Below the pieces are notes generated by a model. The model saw only the letters and a program-made list of their open reading frames with translations, was not told the origin of the DNA and did no database searches. A DNA stretch of 64,000 nucleotides from contig NC_015844.1 of NCBI RefSeq assembly GCF_000973105.1, positions 3,220,501-3,284,500 of the forward strand. The letters are read 5' to 3'. Positions 38,399 to 61,986 of this stretch are shown in pieces (position 1 is the stretch's first letter; every line of letters begins with the position of its first letter). Source of the DNA: Zobellia galactanivorans (lineage in GTDB: Bacteria > Bacteroidota > Bacteroidia > Flavobacteriales > Flavobacteriaceae). The position numbers were made by a program, and so were the translations under genes.

Positions 38399-39415
38399 TT
38401 AAATATCGGCAGATTTAACCGTTTTAACGATTCTTCCGGCGATTTTGTATGGGTCACCGTTAGAAGCTGGTCTTCTGTCTTCCAACCATCCTTTCCATCC
38501 ACTCTCAACAGTAGCGATAGGAATACGGATAGAAGCACCACGGTCAGAAATTCCGTAGCTGAAATCGTGGATCGATGCGGTTTCGTGAAGACCGGTCAAA
38601 CGTTGGTCGTTGAACTCACCGTAAACGGCAATGTGTTCTTTTACTACAGGTCTGAAAGCCTCGCATATTTTTTCGTAAACCTCTTTTGAACCTGCAGTCC
38701 TTAAAGTAGTGTTAGAGAAGTTGGCGTGCATACCCGAACCATTCCAGTCCATGTCTTTTCCTAATGGTTTTGGGTGGTATTCGATATAGTAACCATATTG
38801 TTCCGATAGTCTATCTAAAAGGTATCTGGCAACCCAAAGTTCGTCACCGGCCAATTTGGCTCCTTTGGCGAACAATTGAAATTCCCACTGGCCACAGGCA
38901 ACCTCTTGGTTGATTCCTTCAAAGTTAAGTCCGGCAGCGATACATAAATCGGCGTGCTCTTCGACCAATAGACGGCCATGTGTATTTTTACCTCCAACCG
39001 AACAGTAGTAAAGGCCTTGTGGGGCAGGGTAGCCTCCAACAGGGAAACCTAAAGGTAGTTGGGTATGGGTGTCCATTATAAAGTATTCTTGCTCAAAACC
39101 GAACCAGAAATCATTATCATCGTCATCGATAGTAGCTCTTCCGTTAGATTCATGAGGTGTTCCATCGGCATTAAGTACTTCGGTCATTACCAAAAAACCA
39201 TCTTTTCTTGCGGGGTCAGGGAAGATGGCAACAGGCTTTAACAAACAATCCGAATCGCCGCCGACTGCCTGTCTTGTTGAACTTCCGTCAAAAGACCACA
39301 TAGGGCAATCTTCCAATTTACCACTAAAGTCGTTTACGACCTTAGTCTTGCTACGCATGTTTTGCGTTGGGAAATATCCATCCAACCAGATGTATTCTAA
39401 TTTAGTTTTGCTCAT
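38399..39415 (-). CDS. glnA: Glutamine synthetase, GSII (eukaryote-like) type
   Basis: 338 residues, far shorter than the GSI dodecamer subunit (about 470), matching the GSII length. Features: an N-terminal beta-grasp region with KTKVVNDFSGKLEDCPMWSFDGSST; FGFEQEYFIMD with metal-binding Glu; GINQEVACGQWEFQ; the ATP/glutamate segment DWNGSGMHANFSN; and the RGASIRIP and EDRRPASNGDPY motifs. It forms glutamine from glutamate, ammonium and ATP. Divergent from GSIII, with shared upstream motifs. Confidence 0.94.
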   Translation of the reverse strand: MSKTKLEYIWLDGYFPTQNMRSKTKVVNDFSGKLEDCPMWSFDGSSTRQAVGGDSDCLLKPVAIFPDPARKDGFLVMTEVLNADGTPHESNGRATIDDDDNDFWFGFEQEYFIMDTHTQLPLGFPVGGYPAPQGLYYCSVGGKNTHGRLLVEEHADLCIAAGLNFEGINQEVACGQWEFQLFAKGAKLAGDELWVARYLLDRLSEQYGYYIEYHPKPLGKDMDWNGSGMHANFSNTTLRTAGSKEVYEKICEAFRPVVKEHIAVYGEFNDQRLTGLHETASIHDFSYGISDRGASIRIPIATVESGWKGWLEDRRPASNGDPYKIAGRIVKTVKSADI

Positions 39416-39449: not shown

Positions 39450-39457
39450 CAAAAATA
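39450..39457 (-). promoter_or_regulatory. glnA -7 box
   Basis: Minus strand TATTTTTG, exact TAnnTTTG, ending 35 bp before the glnA ATG. A TTAG 19 nt upstream (39477-39480) fits an imperfect -33 element, which coincides with the putative operator. Confidence 0.7.
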
Positions 39458-39469
39458 TGTTTTTTACTC

Positions 39470-39495
39470 AATTATACTAATTTTTAGGGGGGTAA
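39470..39495. promoter_or_regulatory. Putative nitrogen operator, promoter-proximal site (glnA)
   Basis: AATTATAC at 39470-39477, a 10-nt A+T-rich spacer, then GGGGGTAA at 39488-39495. It resembles glnK site II (AATTATACCCCC...GGGGGTAT). Its centre is about 29 bp upstream of the centre of the glnA -7 box, as for glnK site I. The left arm lacks the C-run, so this site is degenerate. Confidence 0.4.
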
Positions 39496-39522
39496 ATATC
39501 AAAAAATTGAGTATAATTTAGG

Positions 39523-39546
39523 ATAGCCCTATTTTTTGAGGGGTAT
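39523..39546. promoter_or_regulatory. Putative nitrogen operator, promoter-distal site (glnA/glnN)
   Basis: ATAGCCC-N10-GGGGTAT, a 24-bp near-palindrome matching glnK site II (ATACCCCC-N9-GGGGGTAT). Centre about 81 bp from the glnA -7 box centre, versus 82.5 bp at glnK. It could also serve the divergent glnN. Confidence 0.5.
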
Positions 39547-39626: not shown

Positions 39627-41813
39627 ATGTCGAGACAGCGATTTGATGCAATGACCGAAAGCCGGAAAAGAGAGCGTGTAGGTGTTGAAGAAAAAGGGCG
39701 ACGTTCCGAGCTTTTTGGAAACAATGTTTTTAATAAGGAGCGCATGCTACAGTACCTTACCAAAGATGCTTTGGAAAGCGTGCAGGGGGCAATTTTCTCG
39801 GGATCTAAAATAGATAGAAAGATAGCTGACCAGGTGGCCGAGGCCATGAAGACCTGGGCTATAGAAATGGGGGCTACGCATTATACCCATTGGTTTCAAC
39901 CGCTTACGGGGGCGACTGCCGAAAAGCACGATGCCTTTTTTGATCTAATGTCGGATGGAAGGGCCTTGGAGAAATTTGGGGGTGGCCAATTGGTGCAACA
40001 GGAGCCTGATGCCTCAAGCTTTCCAAGTGGTGGAATTCGCAACACTTTTGAAGCTCGTGGCTATACCGCATGGGACCCTACCAGTCCGGCTTTTGTTTAC
40101 GATACGACACTTTGTATACCCACGATATTTGTTTCGTATACCGGTGAAGCCTTAGATAATAAGGCGCCACTTTTGCGCGCCCTTAATGCCATAGATGAGG
40201 CGGCAACTGCCGTAGCAAAATATTTTGATAAAACCGTGGTCAAGGTAAACGCTACCTTGGGCTGGGAGCAAGAATATTTCTTGGTCGATAAGGCATTGGC
40301 CCATTCACGTAGCGATATAAGTCTGACGGGGAGAACCTTGGTAGGGCATTCGGCCGCAAAGGGACAACAACTTGATGACCATTATTTTGGGGTAATACCC
40401 TTGAGGGCCATTAATTTTATGAAGGAACTCGAGCTGGAATGTATGCGCCTGGGTATTCCTGTTAAAACAAGGCATAACGAAGTGGCGCCGAACCAATTTG
40501 AATTGGCCCCTGTTTTTGAAGAGGCTAATTTGGCGGTAGATCATAACTTGCTCTTGATGGATGTCATGGACCGCATTGCGGATAGGCACAACCTTAAAGT
40601 GCTCTTTCATGAAAAACCCTTTGCCGGCATCAATGGTTCGGGTAAGCATAATAACTGGTCGTTGGCGACCGATACGGGCGTGAATTTGTTGAGTCCGGGG
40701 TCTACGCCCATGAAGAACCTTCAGTTTTTGACCTTCTTTATCAATACCATTAAGGCGGTAGATACCTATGAGGAGCTGTTGCGTTCGTCTATAGCTTCGG
40801 CCAGCAATGACCATAGGTTGGGCGCCAATGAAGCGCCTCCGGCAATCTTGTCGATATTCGTTGGTAAGCAGTTGGGTAATGTGTTGGATGAATTGGAGGG
40901 TGTTTCCAAAGGAAAGTTGTCCCCTGAGGAAAAAACTGAGCTCAAATTGAACGTAGTGGGTAAAATACCCGAAATTCTACTTGATAATACGGATCGCAAC
41001 CGGACTTCCCCCTTTGCCTTTACCGGAAACAAATTTGAAATGCGGGGCGTAGGTTCAAAAACGAACTGTGCCAAACCGATGACCATTTTGAACACTATAG
41101 TGGCCAAGCAGCTGCGGGAGTTTAAAAAAGAGGTAGATGCACTTGTCGATAAAAAGAGCCTTAAAAAGGATGAGGCCGTATTCAATGTTTTGCGGGAGTA
41201 TATCAAGACTTCAAAACGTATTCGTTTTGATGGTGATGGTTATAGCGAAGATTGGCAAAAAGAAGCGGAACGCAGAAAACTCAGCAACAATAAAACCACT
41301 CCGGCCGCCCTTCAGGTGCTGACCTCAAAGCAAAGCTTGGAACTCTTTGCCTCTATGGGGGTGATGAGCGAAAAAGAGGTCACCGCAAGGCAAGAGGTAG
41401 AGCTTGAAGCCTATATCTTGCATATACAGATAGAGGGTAGGGTGTTGAACGAATTGGTCTATAGCCATATTATCCCATCGGTAATAGAATATCAGAACAT
41501 CTTGATCAAGAATGTATTGGGGCTCAAGGAGATCTATGGGGCTGCCCATCGAAAACTGACCGATGGTCAATCGGGTATTATAGAGCAGATCGCCGAGCAT
41601 ATTACCGAACTTAAAAAACAGGTAGATGCGATGACGGATGCCCGTAGAAAAGCCAATAAATTGACCGATACCCAAAAAAAGGCCTTTGCGTACAGTGACG
41701 ATGTCAAGCCGTATTTTGAAAAAATAAGAATGCATTGTGATAAGCTGGAAATGCTTGTGGATAACCGTTATTGGCCCTTGGTCAAGTATCGGGAGTTGTT
41801 GTCTATCAAGTAG
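39627..41813 (+). CDS. glnN: Glutamine synthetase type III
   Basis: 728 residues, the normal size for GSIII, which forms double-ringed dodecamers. Diagnostic segments: the N-terminal FNKERMLQYLTKDAL, GWEQEYFLVDKALAHSRSDI, RHNEVAPNQFELAPVFEEANLAVDHN, the NGSGKHNNWSL catalytic loop and NRTSPFAFTGNKFEMRGVGS. It makes glutamine. Divergent from the GSII gene across 211 bp; having both types suggests division of labour with nitrogen supply (inference). Confidence 0.96.
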   Translation: MSRQRFDAMTESRKRERVGVEEKGRRSELFGNNVFNKERMLQYLTKDALESVQGAIFSGSKIDRKIADQVAEAMKTWAIEMGATHYTHWFQPLTGATAEKHDAFFDLMSDGRALEKFGGGQLVQQEPDASSFPSGGIRNTFEARGYTAWDPTSPAFVYDTTLCIPTIFVSYTGEALDNKAPLLRALNAIDEAATAVAKYFDKTVVKVNATLGWEQEYFLVDKALAHSRSDISLTGRTLVGHSAAKGQQLDDHYFGVIPLRAINFMKELELECMRLGIPVKTRHNEVAPNQFELAPVFEEANLAVDHNLLLMDVMDRIADRHNLKVLFHEKPFAGINGSGKHNNWSLATDTGVNLLSPGSTPMKNLQFLTFFINTIKAVDTYEELLRSSIASASNDHRLGANEAPPAILSIFVGKQLGNVLDELEGVSKGKLSPEEKTELKLNVVGKIPEILLDNTDRNRTSPFAFTGNKFEMRGVGSKTNCAKPMTILNTIVAKQLREFKKEVDALVDKKSLKKDEAVFNVLREYIKTSKRIRFDGDGYSEDWQKEAERRKLSNNKTTPAALQVLTSKQSLELFASMGVMSEKEVTARQEVELEAYILHIQIEGRVLNELVYSHIIPSVIEYQNILIKNVLGLKEIYGAAHRKLTDGQSGIIEQIAEHITELKKQVDAMTDARRKANKLTDTQKKAFAYSDDVKPYFEKIRMHCDKLEMLVDNRYWPLVKYRELLSIK

Positions 41814-51941: not shown

Positions 51942-52388
51942 ATGAATATAGATGATTTAAACTGGAAAATACTCAAATGTCTTCAGGCAAATGCGCGTGA
52001 AACCTTTGCCGATATCGGAAGGAAAGTCGGCTTAACGGCACCGGCAGTGGCGGAGCGAATCAAGAAGATGGAAGACCTGGGAATTATAGAGGGATATATT
52101 ACTAAAGTGTCACATGCAAAGACGGGACATCATTTAAAGGCCATTATTACCCTTAGGGCCTTTATGGGGAAATTAAAACCCTTTTTAGAGATGGTGAAGA
52201 CCTATAAAGAGGTGGTGAACTGCTACAGGATTACGGGTAACGAGAACATTGTAATGGAGGTAGTGCTGAAAGATCAGTTTCATTTGGAACGCTTTATCGA
52301 TAAGCTGATTCAGTATGGGGAAACACGTACCCATATTATCCTTTCCAATGTGGTGTCAAGTGCGCCTATCGGGAAGAACACTTTTTAA
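51942..52388 (+). CDS. Lrp/AsnC family transcriptional regulator
   Basis: 148 residues. The N-terminal helix-turn-helix (NIDDLNWKILKCLQANARETFADIGRKVGLTAPAVAERIKKMEDLGIIEGY, residues 1-52) is followed by an AsnC_trans_reg ligand-binding domain (VSHAKTGHHLKAIITL to the end). It binds an amino acid or related effector; the target could be the divergent gene at 51402 (inference). Confidence 0.93.
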   Translation: MNIDDLNWKILKCLQANARETFADIGRKVGLTAPAVAERIKKMEDLGIIEGYITKVSHAKTGHHLKAIITLRAFMGKLKPFLEMVKTYKEVVNCYRITGNENIVMEVVLKDQFHLERFIDKLIQYGETRTHIILSNVVSSAPIGKNTF

Positions 52389-58541: not shown

Positions 58542-59609
58542 TTAGAAAGAGTAGACCGCAGCCAACACAAAAGAAGAAAGACCTCCAATTGGGTTTCCAT
58601 CATTGTCAATGAATACTTCTTCTGAAGCACTGTCTAATCTTAATTCCGGCTTGATGATCAGGTCACCAATAGTTGCGCTACCGGTAAGGGTTACAGCAAA
58701 TACACTTGCGTCACCATCAGCATCTGATCCACCAACTGCTCCAAAGGAATCGGTTTCAGCAAAATACTCACCTCTTAGACCTATTGAGAAAGTGTCGGAA
58801 GTGGCCAACTGTGGGTAAACAGCCAAACCTGCAAAGCTACCAACACCGTCATCTTCGTCACCATCAAAATAAGCAGCGTTCAGTCCTAGGAAGAAAGTAT
58901 CGGAAAGGTCAAAACCACCTGTGAAATCTACTTCGTAAGAACCGTTATCAATAAGAAGGTTCAAGTATTGACCACTGTAGCCTAACTGAGCACCCCAAGC
59001 ATATTGTCCTGTTGGGTTGAACTCTGTAAGGTCAGTTGGGTTCATTACCGCTAACATTAAGCTGAAATCATCAGATAAAGCAAAATCAGCTTTTAGTCCC
59101 GTGTGTGAAAACGGACCGTATGAGAACAAGTAAGATGTGCTGTAGTTAAAGTTGGCAACCGGAGAGATAACCTCGTAACCTAAGAAGGTATTAAAGTTAC
59201 CAAAGGTTAATGTTACGGCATCACTTACGTTCCAGTAAGCATACAACTGGTTAACGATGTTTCCGGTAGAAGAATACATTGGAGAAGCAAAAATGGCATC
59301 CGTTCCTCTTGGGCCAAAAACCAAATCGGCAACAAAACCTACTTTTTCACCTTCGTAAGCACCAATAACATTGGCCATACCTAAGGCAAATCCTGGTAGG
59401 TTAGCGAATGAGCTTCCTGGAGCTTGGGCATCTTCTCCGTTAGGTGCATTTAAATTTGCTCTATAATAGGCATCAACAGAACCACTGAAAGAAAATTTTG
59501 GCTTTGATTCTTCTTCTTCCTCCTGTGCAACAACAGCAGTTGCAGAGAAAAGCATCAATGCTAGGAAAAATAGATTTTTTACGTATTTTGTATTTGTAAT
59601 CGCTTTCAT
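58542..59609 (-). CDS. Outer-membrane porin-like beta-barrel, third gene of glnK-amt operon
   Basis: 355 residues. A signal peptide (FSATAVVAQ) is followed by a short Glu-rich linker, the SFSGSVDAYYRANLN first strand and a series of antiparallel strands ending VLAAVYSF. This is the pattern of Bacteroidota outer-membrane porins often found beside amt. It lies 114 bp downstream of amt on the same strand. Passage of ammonium or other nitrogen compounds is inferred from position only. Confidence 0.85.
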   Translation of the reverse strand: MKAITNTKYVKNLFFLALMLFSATAVVAQEEEEESKPKFSFSGSVDAYYRANLNAPNGEDAQAPGSSFANLPGFALGMANVIGAYEGEKVGFVADLVFGPRGTDAIFASPMYSSTGNIVNQLYAYWNVSDAVTLTFGNFNTFLGYEVISPVANFNYSTSYLFSYGPFSHTGLKADFALSDDFSLMLAVMNPTDLTEFNPTGQYAWGAQLGYSGQYLNLLIDNGSYEVDFTGGFDLSDTFFLGLNAAYFDGDEDDGVGSFAGLAVYPQLATSDTFSIGLRGEYFAETDSFGAVGGSDADGDASVFAVTLTGSATIGDLIIKPELRLDSASEEVFIDNDGNPIGGLSSFVLAAVYSF

Positions 59610-59723: not shown

Positions 59724-60956
59724 TTATTCGTTTATGAAATCTGGGTAGGCGTCCATTCCATGTTCGTGAATGTCAAGGCCTTCAATCTCTTCTTCCTTGC
59801 TCACTCTCAGTCCCATTATCGACTTCAAGGCTCCTAAGATGATAAATGTGCATACGACACAGAAGACACCTATGATCAACACGCCATATAGCTGCGTCAT
59901 GAATTGTTCGCCTCCGGCTTTGGCTCCGAAGATACCTACTGCCAATGTTCCCCAGATACCACATACCAAGTGAACGGCAACGGCACCTACAGGGTCGTCT
60001 AGTTTTAATTTGTCAACCAAGGAAACGGCAAGAACAATTAGTAGGCCGGCTAAGAACCCGATGGCTACGGCTTCGTTGGGGGACATTAGGTCGGCCCCTG
60101 CCGTGATACCTACAAGACCACCAAGAATACCATTAAGGAACATGGTCAAATCGAGGTTCTTGTATAATATGGTAGATAAGATCATGGCTCCGAAGCCACC
60201 TGCTGCTGCTGCTAAACTTGTGGTAACCAATACTAAGGAAGTCAATTCTGGGTCGGCGGATAGTACAGAGCCACCGTTAAAACCAAACCATCCTAACCAA
60301 AGGATAAGTACACCTGCCGTTGCCATAGGTATGCTATGGCCCGGTATGGCCTTGGGCTTACCGTTTTCATCGAATTTACCGATACGTGATCCTAGTAAGA
60401 AGATAGCGACCAATGCGGCCCAGCCTCCTACAGAGTGAACTAATGTAGAACCTGCGAAATCATAGAAACCCCATGAATCCAAGAAACCACCGCCCCATTT
60501 CCAGGCGCCTACTATAGGATATACAAATCCTACGTAAATCACGGTAAAAATCATAAAGGCACCGATTTTAATACGTTCCGCAACGGCACCGGATACTATG
60601 GTTGCTGCCGTAGCTGCGAACATACCCTGAAATAAGAAGTCTGTCCACCAAGTGTAACCGCCATCGGCGTATTCTGGGGTCATTCCGTTTTCTGGGGCGG
60701 CAATACCGAAGCCGGCGAATCCGAATATACCTGAGGATCCTTCTTCGAAACCGGGGTACATCATATTAAAGCCCCATGCGTAGTAAAGTAAAAGTCCACC
60801 TGTAATAATAAAGATGTTCTTAAATAATATGTTTATTGTATTTTTTTGTCTGGTAAGACCGATTTCTAAAAAGGAAAACCCGGTGTGCATGAAGAATACC
60901 AAGGCGGTAGCCAACATCATCCAAACGTTATTTGCTGTAAATAATCCTGCGTCCAT
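59724..60956 (-). CDS. amt: Ammonium transporter
   Basis: 410 residues with eleven membrane helices. The pore His pair is present: His in GSTLVHSVGGWAAL and His in VAVHLVCGIWGTLAVG. Family signatures DFLFQGMFAATAATIVSGAVAERIK and LGWFGFNGGS are intact. It brings ammonium across the inner membrane. 27 bp downstream of glnK, whose product would plug the channel when nitrogen is ample. Confidence 0.97.
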   Translation of the reverse strand: MDAGLFTANNVWMMLATALVFFMHTGFSFLEIGLTRQKNTINILFKNIFIITGGLLLYYAWGFNMMYPGFEEGSSGIFGFAGFGIAAPENGMTPEYADGGYTWWTDFLFQGMFAATAATIVSGAVAERIKIGAFMIFTVIYVGFVYPIVGAWKWGGGFLDSWGFYDFAGSTLVHSVGGWAALVAIFLLGSRIGKFDENGKPKAIPGHSIPMATAGVLILWLGWFGFNGGSVLSADPELTSLVLVTTSLAAAAGGFGAMILSTILYKNLDLTMFLNGILGGLVGITAGADLMSPNEAVAIGFLAGLLIVLAVSLVDKLKLDDPVGAVAVHLVCGIWGTLAVGIFGAKAGGEQFMTQLYGVLIIGVFCVVCTFIILGALKSIMGLRVSKEEEIEGLDIHEHGMDAYPDFINE

Positions 60957-60983: not shown

Positions 60984-61322
60984 TTAGTTGATTCCGGCTT
61001 GCCCGCTTTCTTTGGTCCTTATTCTATAAGCATCAATGATTTCTGAAACAAAGATTTTTCCATCACCGACATTGCCGGTGTAGGCTGCTTCAAGAATGGT
61101 GTCGACAGTACGCTGCACAAACTCATCCGATACTACTATAGAAAGATACCTTCGTTGAATGTCGCTCGTGCTATAAGAGATTCCCCTATACACGTGACCT
61201 TGCTTTTCGTTTCCGACTCCGGTTACATCCCAGTAACTGAAGAAGTTGACCTCTATTTGATGCAACGCCTTCTTGACGTCGTCAAACTTCGATTTTCTAA
61301 TGATTGCCTCGATTTGTTTCAT
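60984..61322 (-). CDS. glnK: Nitrogen regulatory protein PII (GlnK/GlnB)
   Basis: 112 residues, a complete PII subunit. IEAIIRKSKFDDVKKALHQIEV is the N-terminal strand-helix; the T-loop region is GHVYRGISYSTSDIQRRYL, with Tyr at the position of the uridylylated Tyr51. The B-loop is TGNVGDGKIFV. Linked to amt, so GlnK by context. Upstream lie two G5-TAT palindromes and a consensus -7 box. Confidence 0.95.
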   Translation of the reverse strand: MKQIEAIIRKSKFDDVKKALHQIEVNFFSYWDVTGVGNEKQGHVYRGISYSTSDIQRRYLSIVVSDEFVQRTVDTILEAAYTGNVGDGKIFVSEIIDAYRIRTKESGQAGIN

Positions 61323-61345
61323 AATAGTTGTATTAATTAGAGAAA

Positions 61346-61353
61346 CAAATGTA
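61346..61353 (-). promoter_or_regulatory. glnK-amt -7 box
   Basis: Minus strand TACATTTG, exact TAnnTTTG, ending 23 bp before the glnK ATG. The -33 region falls inside the palindrome at 61366-61390. Confidence 0.7.
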
Positions 61354-61365
61354 TGTTAAAAGAAT

Positions 61366-61390
61366 TAACACCCATAAAATTTGGGGGTAT
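61366..61390. promoter_or_regulatory. Putative nitrogen operator, site I (glnK)
   Basis: TAACACCC-N9-GGGGGTAT, 25 bp, an imperfect palindrome whose 9-nt spacer (ATAAAATTT) differs from site II at one position. It overlaps the expected -33 element. Confidence 0.55.
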
Positions 61391-61419
61391 ATGTATTAAT
61401 TTTTATGTTTATAGGAATT

Positions 61420-61444
61420 ATACCCCCTTAAAATTTGGGGGTAT
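61420..61444. promoter_or_regulatory. Putative nitrogen operator, site II (glnK)
   Basis: ATACCCCC-N9-GGGGGTAT, 25 bp, with perfect 8-bp arms. Shares the 15-mer AAAATTTGGGGGTAT exactly with site I. Its centre is 54 bp from that of site I, about five helical turns. Confidence 0.65.
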
Positions 61445-61614
61445 TGAATTAAAAACAATCAAAAATGCATATTTAGCCATCTGATTTACGATTTTTTGAA
61501 GGAATATTTAGAAAAATCGATAAAATCTACCAGATAGGTTAATAATAACAGTTTGCTTGCTTAAAACTTTAGGTTTTTAGTAAAGAGGGGTGTGTTTGGT
61601 TGAAAAAACCTTAA

Positions 61615-61986
61615 TTATATAAGTTTTGATAACCAAAGGCCGAGTGCGACCGCTAGAATTCCAATTACTATGCTGGAAATCAGGTAAATGAAGAAAAAGG
61701 TCAGCTCGCCTGAGTTTAAAAGCGAGTGTTTTTCAAATGCAAATGTGGAAAAAGTGGTAAAGCCTCCGCAGAAACCCGTAGCGAATAAGAGGGTTTGGTT
61801 CGGGGTCAAATAGTTGGTCTTAAGGGAGAGTCCTAGAATGAAGCCGATCAATAGGCAGCCGAGAACATTGACCAAAAAAGTACCTAAAAAGAAATGTTGA
61901 AAGTAATTGTTGAGTGATTTGGAAACTAGATAGCGAAGTATGCTACCTATGCCACCACCAAAGAATACGAGTAACAATTGTTTCAT
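61615..61986 (-). CDS. crcB: Fluoride channel CrcB/Fluc
   Basis: 123 residues and four membrane helices, the normal single-domain Fluc. Signatures: GGGIGSILRYLVS near the N-terminus, GTFLVNVLGCLLIGF (pore Asn) and GFCGGFTTFSTFAFE with the central-Na+ and Phe-box residues. It exports fluoride as a dual-topology dimer. No obvious fluoride riboswitch is seen upstream. Confidence 0.95.
   Translation of the reverse strand: MKQLLLVFFGGGIGSILRYLVSKSLNNYFQHFFLGTFLVNVLGCLLIGFILGLSLKTNYLTPNQTLLFATGFCGGFTTFSTFAFEKHSLLNSGELTFFFIYLISSIVIGILAVALGLWLSKLI

Follow-up and report, generated by a model that had tools for sequence, protein, structure and literature searches.

Several operators in front of bacterial nitrogen genes are well described. 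In cyanobacteria, the NtcA site (Crp family) is a palindrome of consensus GTA-N8-TAC found before glnA, amt and glnB-type genes, where it overlaps the -35 region and is followed by a -10-like element. In Bacillota, GlnR and TnrA (MerR family) recognize the consensus TGTNA-N7-TNACA. Two further kinds of sites come close in width or half-site sequence to the one described here, which are the type 1 sites of IscR (Rrf2 family; ATASYYGACT...) and the lux-box/NarL-type sites of the GerE family (ACCTG-N10-CAGGT, with half-sites TACYYMT).

The operator reported here was found in a 64,000-nucleotide stretch of Zobellia galactanivorans (the window), where two palindromes precede glnK and amt. Like NtcA promoters, this locus has a palindrome at the -35/-33 region ahead of nitrogen genes, but the sequence is TACCC..GGGTA instead of GTA-N8-TAC, and two sites about 53 bp apart are present at many genes. 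The aligned consensus, ACCC(C)-AT-rich-(G)GGGT, is unlike GTA-N8-TAC, and an NtcA-type site was rejected. The likeness to GlnR/TnrA lies in short palindromes, often two per promoter, before glutamine synthetase and ammonium-transport genes, while the sequence is another one and the pairs here have a fixed five-turn spacing; this type was also rejected, as the aligned consensus differs from TGTNA-N7-TNACA. IscR type 1 sites share the 25-bp palindrome with ATACC..GGTAT ends, but Rrf2 proteins had no match in five operator-bearing genomes. Lux-box/NarL-type sites resemble it as 20-bp palindromes, as wide as ACCTG-N10-CAGGT, and in their half-sites (TACYYMT), but no single GerE type was found in all of the small operator-bearing genomes, which are incomplete. 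A NtrC/sigma-54 regulon was rejected because 64 aligned loci have no GG or GC columns (-24/-12) downstream of the proximal site, where only a TA..TTT element is strong.

In one library of open-access papers, we found neither a description of the paired operator nor a well-described transcriptional regulator of ammonium uptake or assimilation in Bacteroidota. The first-pass annotation had stated that Bacteroidota lack a well-described NtrC-type control of these genes, and the papers listed there neither speak against this nor establish it. The operator and its regulon are of a known kind, with a sequence and an architecture that are undescribed there and a regulator that is probably undescribed.

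Position and make-up of the paired palindromes

In the window, glnK (60984..61322, minus strand; Pfam P-II, E 3.8e-23) is followed by amt (59724..60956, minus; Pfam Ammonium_transp, E 8.5e-118) and then by a gene for an outer-membrane porin (58542..59609, minus; Pfam BBP2, E 7e-68), a conserved neighbour and the partner of amt in relatives. The nearest gene upstream of the palindromes is crcB (61986..61615). Each palindrome is a 25-bp element. The distal one, ATACCCCC-N9-GGGGGTAT (61420..61444), has perfect 8-base arms, whose columns are conserved in the 64 aligned loci; the proximal one, TAACACCC-N9-GGGGGTAT (61366..61390), occupies the place of the -33 element. Both lie exactly where the first-pass annotation had put them (61366-61390 and 61420-61444), with centres at 61378 and 61432, 54 bp apart as it had said. 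The string common to both turned out to be 16 bases long, not 15, and the symmetry it had read in both holds at all 8 outer positions of the distal palindrome and at only 5 of 8 in the proximal one. Between the two lies ATAAAAAT (61399..61406, minus), which is weakly conserved in relatives. A candidate -7 promoter element of the TAnnTTTG type, TACATTTG (minus strand, 61353-61346), comes after the proximal palindrome and before the glnK ATG; as the first-pass annotation had said, the proximal palindrome covers the place expected for a -33 element.

Among 20,000 first-order Markov simulations of the 292-bp intergenic region, 15 contained a comparable pair, defined as two sites 50-56 bp apart with at least 8/10 matches in the arms. 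Across the window, pairs whose summed arm score reaches 16/20 at a spacing of 51-55 bp are found at only two places, before glnK and between the glutamine synthetase genes GSII and GSIII. In the 5.52-Mb genome, a single contig, a strict pair pattern (ACCC..GGGT, 30-37 bp, ACCC, with AT-rich spacers) and a slightly looser one each match only before glnK. Single palindromes with up to 3 mismatches have 5 matches in the window vs 1.98 expected (5 of 100 shuffles reach 5), and 207 forward matches in the whole genome vs 209 in the control. Since the single degenerate palindrome is common by itself, the weight rests on the pair and on its conservation. Five single-site matches in the own genome, inspected with their genes, were taken for chance; one of the five is a double match near 1397783 whose first site falls inside a purH-type open frame.

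It is extremely improbable that the palindromes form RNA hairpins instead of an operator, for example the terminator of the upstream crcB or a leader structure. Some single ACCCC..GGGGT matches elsewhere do resemble terminators behind genes, with flanking A/T runs, but the sites here precede the candidate promoter element and would therefore be outside the glnK transcript; furthermore, a search of 61300-61640 gave no terminator-like site, no Rfam family reached the gathering score in 38000-64000, and the fixed-spacing pair also stands between divergent gene starts.

The second place in the window lies between the divergent genes of a GSII-type glutamine synthetase (38399..39415, minus; Pfam Gln-synt_N and Gln-synt_C) and a GSIII glutamine synthetase of glnN type (39627..41813, plus; Pfam GSIII_N, E 1.4e-77), with sites centred near 39483 and 39534. 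The site nearer GSII, TTTACCCCCCTAAAAATTAGTATAAT on the minus strand (39471..39496), has one degenerate arm (7/10), and the other, TACCCCTCAAAAAATAGGGCTA on the minus strand (39524..39545), scores 9/10. The candidate -7 element of GSII, TATTTTTG (39450..39457, minus), follows the centre of this nearer site by 26.5 bp, so that GSII shows the canonical geometry, though one arm is weak. Two genomes of one genus in the family (G127 and G248, genus g127; loci L212 and L213) contain GSII and GSIII with no evident pair between them, possibly a lineage loss.

Conservation and promoter geometry in Flavobacteriaceae

Of 149 genomes of the Flavobacteriaceae-type family, 104 contain a GlnK relative. We examined 90 glnK loci, made up of 30 chosen by program (own genome and one congener included) and 60 added from the stronger remaining matches; the weak matches and six of the last strong matches were left aside. 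As the threshold, a pair had to consist of two sites with at least 8/10 matches in the arms and a spacing of 50.5-55.5 bp. Such a pair was present in 60 of the 90 loci, own genome included (24 of 30 program-chosen, 36 of 60 added), against 1 of 90 in the reversed-text control; the other 30 loci had no pair at this threshold. Pair and TAnnTTT[GA] element together, the latter 24-28 bp past the proximal centre, occur in 51 of the 90, while in 7 of the 60 pair-bearing loci the tested orientation has no TAnnTTT[GA] at a distance of 18-40 bp. The strict pattern matches 95 of the 149 family genomes, and 8 of 149 when read backwards. Conservation of the palindromes before glnK/amt in relatives, which had been set beforehand as the test of the proposal, was thus observed, with a fixed spacing.

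Among named records, the pair was found in 14 of 37 Flavobacteriaceae-like glnK loci. Pair-bearing records include Maribacter, Robiginitalea, Croceitalea, Salegentibacter, Christiangramia, Psychroserpens, Winogradskyella, Aquimarina, Confluentibacter and Leeuwenhoekiella; Flagellimonas/Allomuricauda records among these loci had no pair at the threshold used. More distant named glnK loci had it in 3 of 43, which was taken for chance.

In its general form, the operator consists of two palindromes, ACCC(C)...GGG(G)T, each about 19-22 bp long, whose centres are mostly 52-54 bp apart, that is five helical turns. The geometry was measured on 73 oriented occurrences; 40 pattern-selected loci are among them, and only occurrences with TAnnTTT[GA] at 18-40 bp were counted. 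The centre spacing is mostly 52.5-53 bp (55 of 73), the -7 element lies 25-26.5 bp from the proximal centre in 59 of 73, and TAnnTTT[GA] is found 24-28 bp past that centre in 69 of 73. In an alignment of 69 occurrences from 64 loci on the proximal centre, the CCC and GGG cores are conserved in both palindromes, each with about 2 bits or more, and the inner-arm gap is 31-34 bp with a mode of 33. Besides the arms, only the TA..TTT element and a weaker ATAAAAAT between the sites stand out in the 64 loci; the latter recurs at the same offset with about 0.3-0.8 bit per column over the AT-rich background. The spacers differ between sites (proximal TaTTTTTT vs distal taAAaTTT). Compensatory arm changes are weak: at the distal site two flanking positions exceed shuffles (16 and 37 of 1000), and at the proximal site no position has symmetric compensatory changes beyond shuffles. 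The expected -33 place, where TTG was sought 15-26 nt upstream of the -7 element, is taken by the GGG of a palindrome arm in 58 of 64 loci and contains TTG in 9 of 64.

Target genes of the paired operator

To see which genes follow the pairs, target proteins were assigned by Pfam for representatives, and by similarity to those or by N-terminal reading for the others. In 27 of 30 program-chosen pair loci, the start of an ammonium-assimilation gene lies within 450 bp downstream; the genes that start near pairs are glnK, amt, porin-amt, gltB, GSII, GSIII and ald. Away from glnK, 39 of 40 hand-picked pair loci have such a start within 450 bp (the exception is L169), several chance-looking places having been passed over in the picking. 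Strict single sites were also searched in 60 genomes, and it turned out that 9 of 19 fetched places away from known pairs are at assimilation genes (gltB 1, GSIII or GSII/GSIII 6, ald 2). The remaining 10 of 19 are not at gltB, GS or ald and are mostly terminator-like, and none of the 19 places lies ahead of an evident regulator, where autoregulation would be expected. Divergent porin-amt and gltB genes commonly have a single operator pair between them (L114-L118 and others), which may serve both directions.

What defines membership of a nitrogen-assimilation regulon, a shared operator ahead of uptake and assimilation genes, was thus found. The first-pass annotation had proposed control of ammonium uptake; pairs do front glnK and amt, but this description is too narrow, because the same operator stands before gltB, two glutamine synthetases and the alanine dehydrogenase gene ald, which makes ammonium uptake only part of the regulon. 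Since the pair recurs at a fixed distance before nitrogen-assimilation genes, the palindromes are very probably binding sites of a nitrogen regulator. Judged from these comparisons of sequences, the pair is almost certainly a real regulatory operator of a nitrogen-assimilation regulon.

Occurrence beyond the family

The strict pair was found in 31 of 395 class genomes, of which 24 lie outside the family (of 381 genomes), vs 21 with a control match, so that outside the family the strict pattern itself is not above background. Among the outside-family loci available, 4 of 23 are at a GSIII start, from four families (L186, L189, L198, L199), one overlaps the start of a distant amt, and 18 of 23 have no such gene.

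GSIII is present in 122 of 129 class genomes sampled. We looked at 30 GSIII loci, three of them from the own family and at least three without an upstream stretch, and 10 of the 30 carry GGGGT-N31..36-ACCCC, in which the inner half-sites keep their usual 32-33 bp gap. As controls, reversed text and swapped order each gave 0, and five other spacing windows together gave 3. In 8 of these 10 loci, those having a recognised -7 element, it comes 13-18 bp after the half-site. This is about two helical turns closer outside the family than in Flavobacteriaceae. The loci with the nearer element upstream of GSIII are L216, L218, L222, L223, L226, L228, L231 and L236.

By eye, the promoters of four Bacteroides/Parabacteroides/Phocaeicola-type operons are without the motif, and Alistipes- and Tangfeifania-type promoters have ACCC/GGGG sites. 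With sites in Alistipes-/Prolixibacteraceae-type loci and their apparent absence, by eye, from Bacteroides-type ones, gain and loss of the operator become testable. In Bacteroidales-type loci (L348-L390), glnK-amt is often clustered with dapF, an aminotransferase gene, a porin-like gene, GSIII, gltB and asnB.

Candidate regulator proteins

It is very likely that one common regulator acts on all pair-bearing genes. On the assumption of one regulator for all, we used small operator-bearing genomes to rule out protein families. Rrf2 regulators were rejected as the common binder, as there is no match in G046, G052, G137, G139 and G099, which all bear the pair (completeness 99, 90, 98, 86 and 95%, respectively). 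The window has its own Lrp/AsnC regulator between the GS genes and glnK (51942-52388, plus), whose orthologue (59-81% identity outside the own genome) was found in 12 of 29 other genomes searched. It is missing from eight operator-bearing genomes (G043, G052, G137, G139, G099, G008, G025, G109), where the best Lrp match has only about 27-32% identity. Rrf2 proteins and the Lrp of the window are therefore excluded as the common regulator. In addition, G337 has a pair at GSIII, and a search at E 0.001 gave no match of Lrp type in this genome, which hints that Lrp proteins as a whole are not the regulator. For GerE proteins, G052 has only one sub-cut-off match, in a 571-aa frame, G099 is without the response-regulator type of about 215 aa and G137 without the type of about 947 aa. 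The gaps in these genomes, which are 86-99% complete, weaken this observation, and a regulator of LuxR/NarL (GerE) type seems unlikely.

The neighbourhood of the target genes was also searched. Many relatives have a conserved block of ilvE, mazG, crcB, glnK, amt, porin, an esterase-like gene, Lrp and purU, and in 14 of 37 named loci the Lrp gene of the window lies in this block together with glnK. By N-terminal reading, no regulator stands out beside GSIII in 30 class loci; the same is true beside amt among the matches listed for 20 class loci, and beside glnK in 43 more distant named loci, for clusters present in at least 3 loci. A Lrp/AsnC gene recurs near ald or glnK in 5 loci. A gene pair for a BlaI-type repressor and a M56 peptidase recurs near GSII in 15 loci among L142-L181, and the same pair is near glutamine synthetase or amt in three more distant loci among L348-L390.

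Proposed mechanism

On sequence grounds, we consider the pair to be probably a tandem operator of a nitrogen-assimilation regulon, read by homodimers on the same face of the helix, with an activator as the most likely regulator. The first-pass annotation had proposed a dimeric binder, which the symmetric arms fit. The palindromic arms suggest a homodimer, and the spacing near five turns would place two dimers on one face, so that one homodimeric regulator would bind both sites. The proximal dimer would then be in contact with RNA polymerase as a class II-type activator, and the distal dimer, some five turns farther upstream, would add to activation. The targets are the ammonium-assimilation set, for which reason the signal would most likely be cellular nitrogen status, and a response to it is likely.

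As for the sign of regulation, the fact that the proximal site stands in for the -33 element points to an activator, and activation is probable. An operator covering the -33 region also fits a repressor, which would sit over this region, loop or cooperate via the distal site and be released under nitrogen scarcity. The overlap of the proximal site with the -33 place agrees with this, as do the other Bacteroidia, where the left half-site is 13-18 bp before the -7 element, within the core promoter, a typical position for repressors. But the -33 TTG is absent in 55 of 64 Flavobacteriaceae loci, and a promoter without it looks weak without help, whereas a repressed promoter would be expected to retain its -33 element; we regard repression as unlikely.

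Expression in Prevotella ruminicola bears on activation as well. In a study of this species (PMC5552732), the corresponding genes were highest with non-limiting ammonium, which does not agree with simple activation by nitrogen starvation. The comparison is tempered by the Bacteroides/Prevotella-type promoters, few and judged by eye, which are without the motif. The words ‘motif’ and ‘promoter’ do not occur in the text of PMC5552732.

The two palindromes might also bind two different proteins, or a regulator together with a DNA-bending protein at ATAAAAAT, or each might have a separate job at divergent genes. This would suit the one pair between two gene starts at divergent GSII/GSIII and porin-amt/gltB, the different proximal and distal spacers and the weakly conserved AT element between the sites, but both sites have the same arms, the same conserved columns and the same fixed spacing, and we find such a division of labour quite improbable. 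The homodimeric activator bound at both sites is the reading that we prefer.

Conclusion

Tentatively, the tandem pair with its five-turn spacing may belong to a dedicated nitrogen-assimilation regulon in Flavobacteriaceae and, by descent, in much of Bacteroidia, read by an undescribed, unlinked activator (not Rrf2, not the linked Lrp and probably not LuxR) that replaces the -33 element. Bacteroides and Prevotella would have dropped the operator, and other families would have kept it at GSIII in a rearranged form, whose promoter lies about two turns nearer. For a family that is prominent in the sea and in other habitats, the analysis provides a precise cis-element, a target list and a promoter geometry. 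The paired operator can serve as DNA bait for the regulator, predicts which genes should move together, and indicates the bases to mutate.
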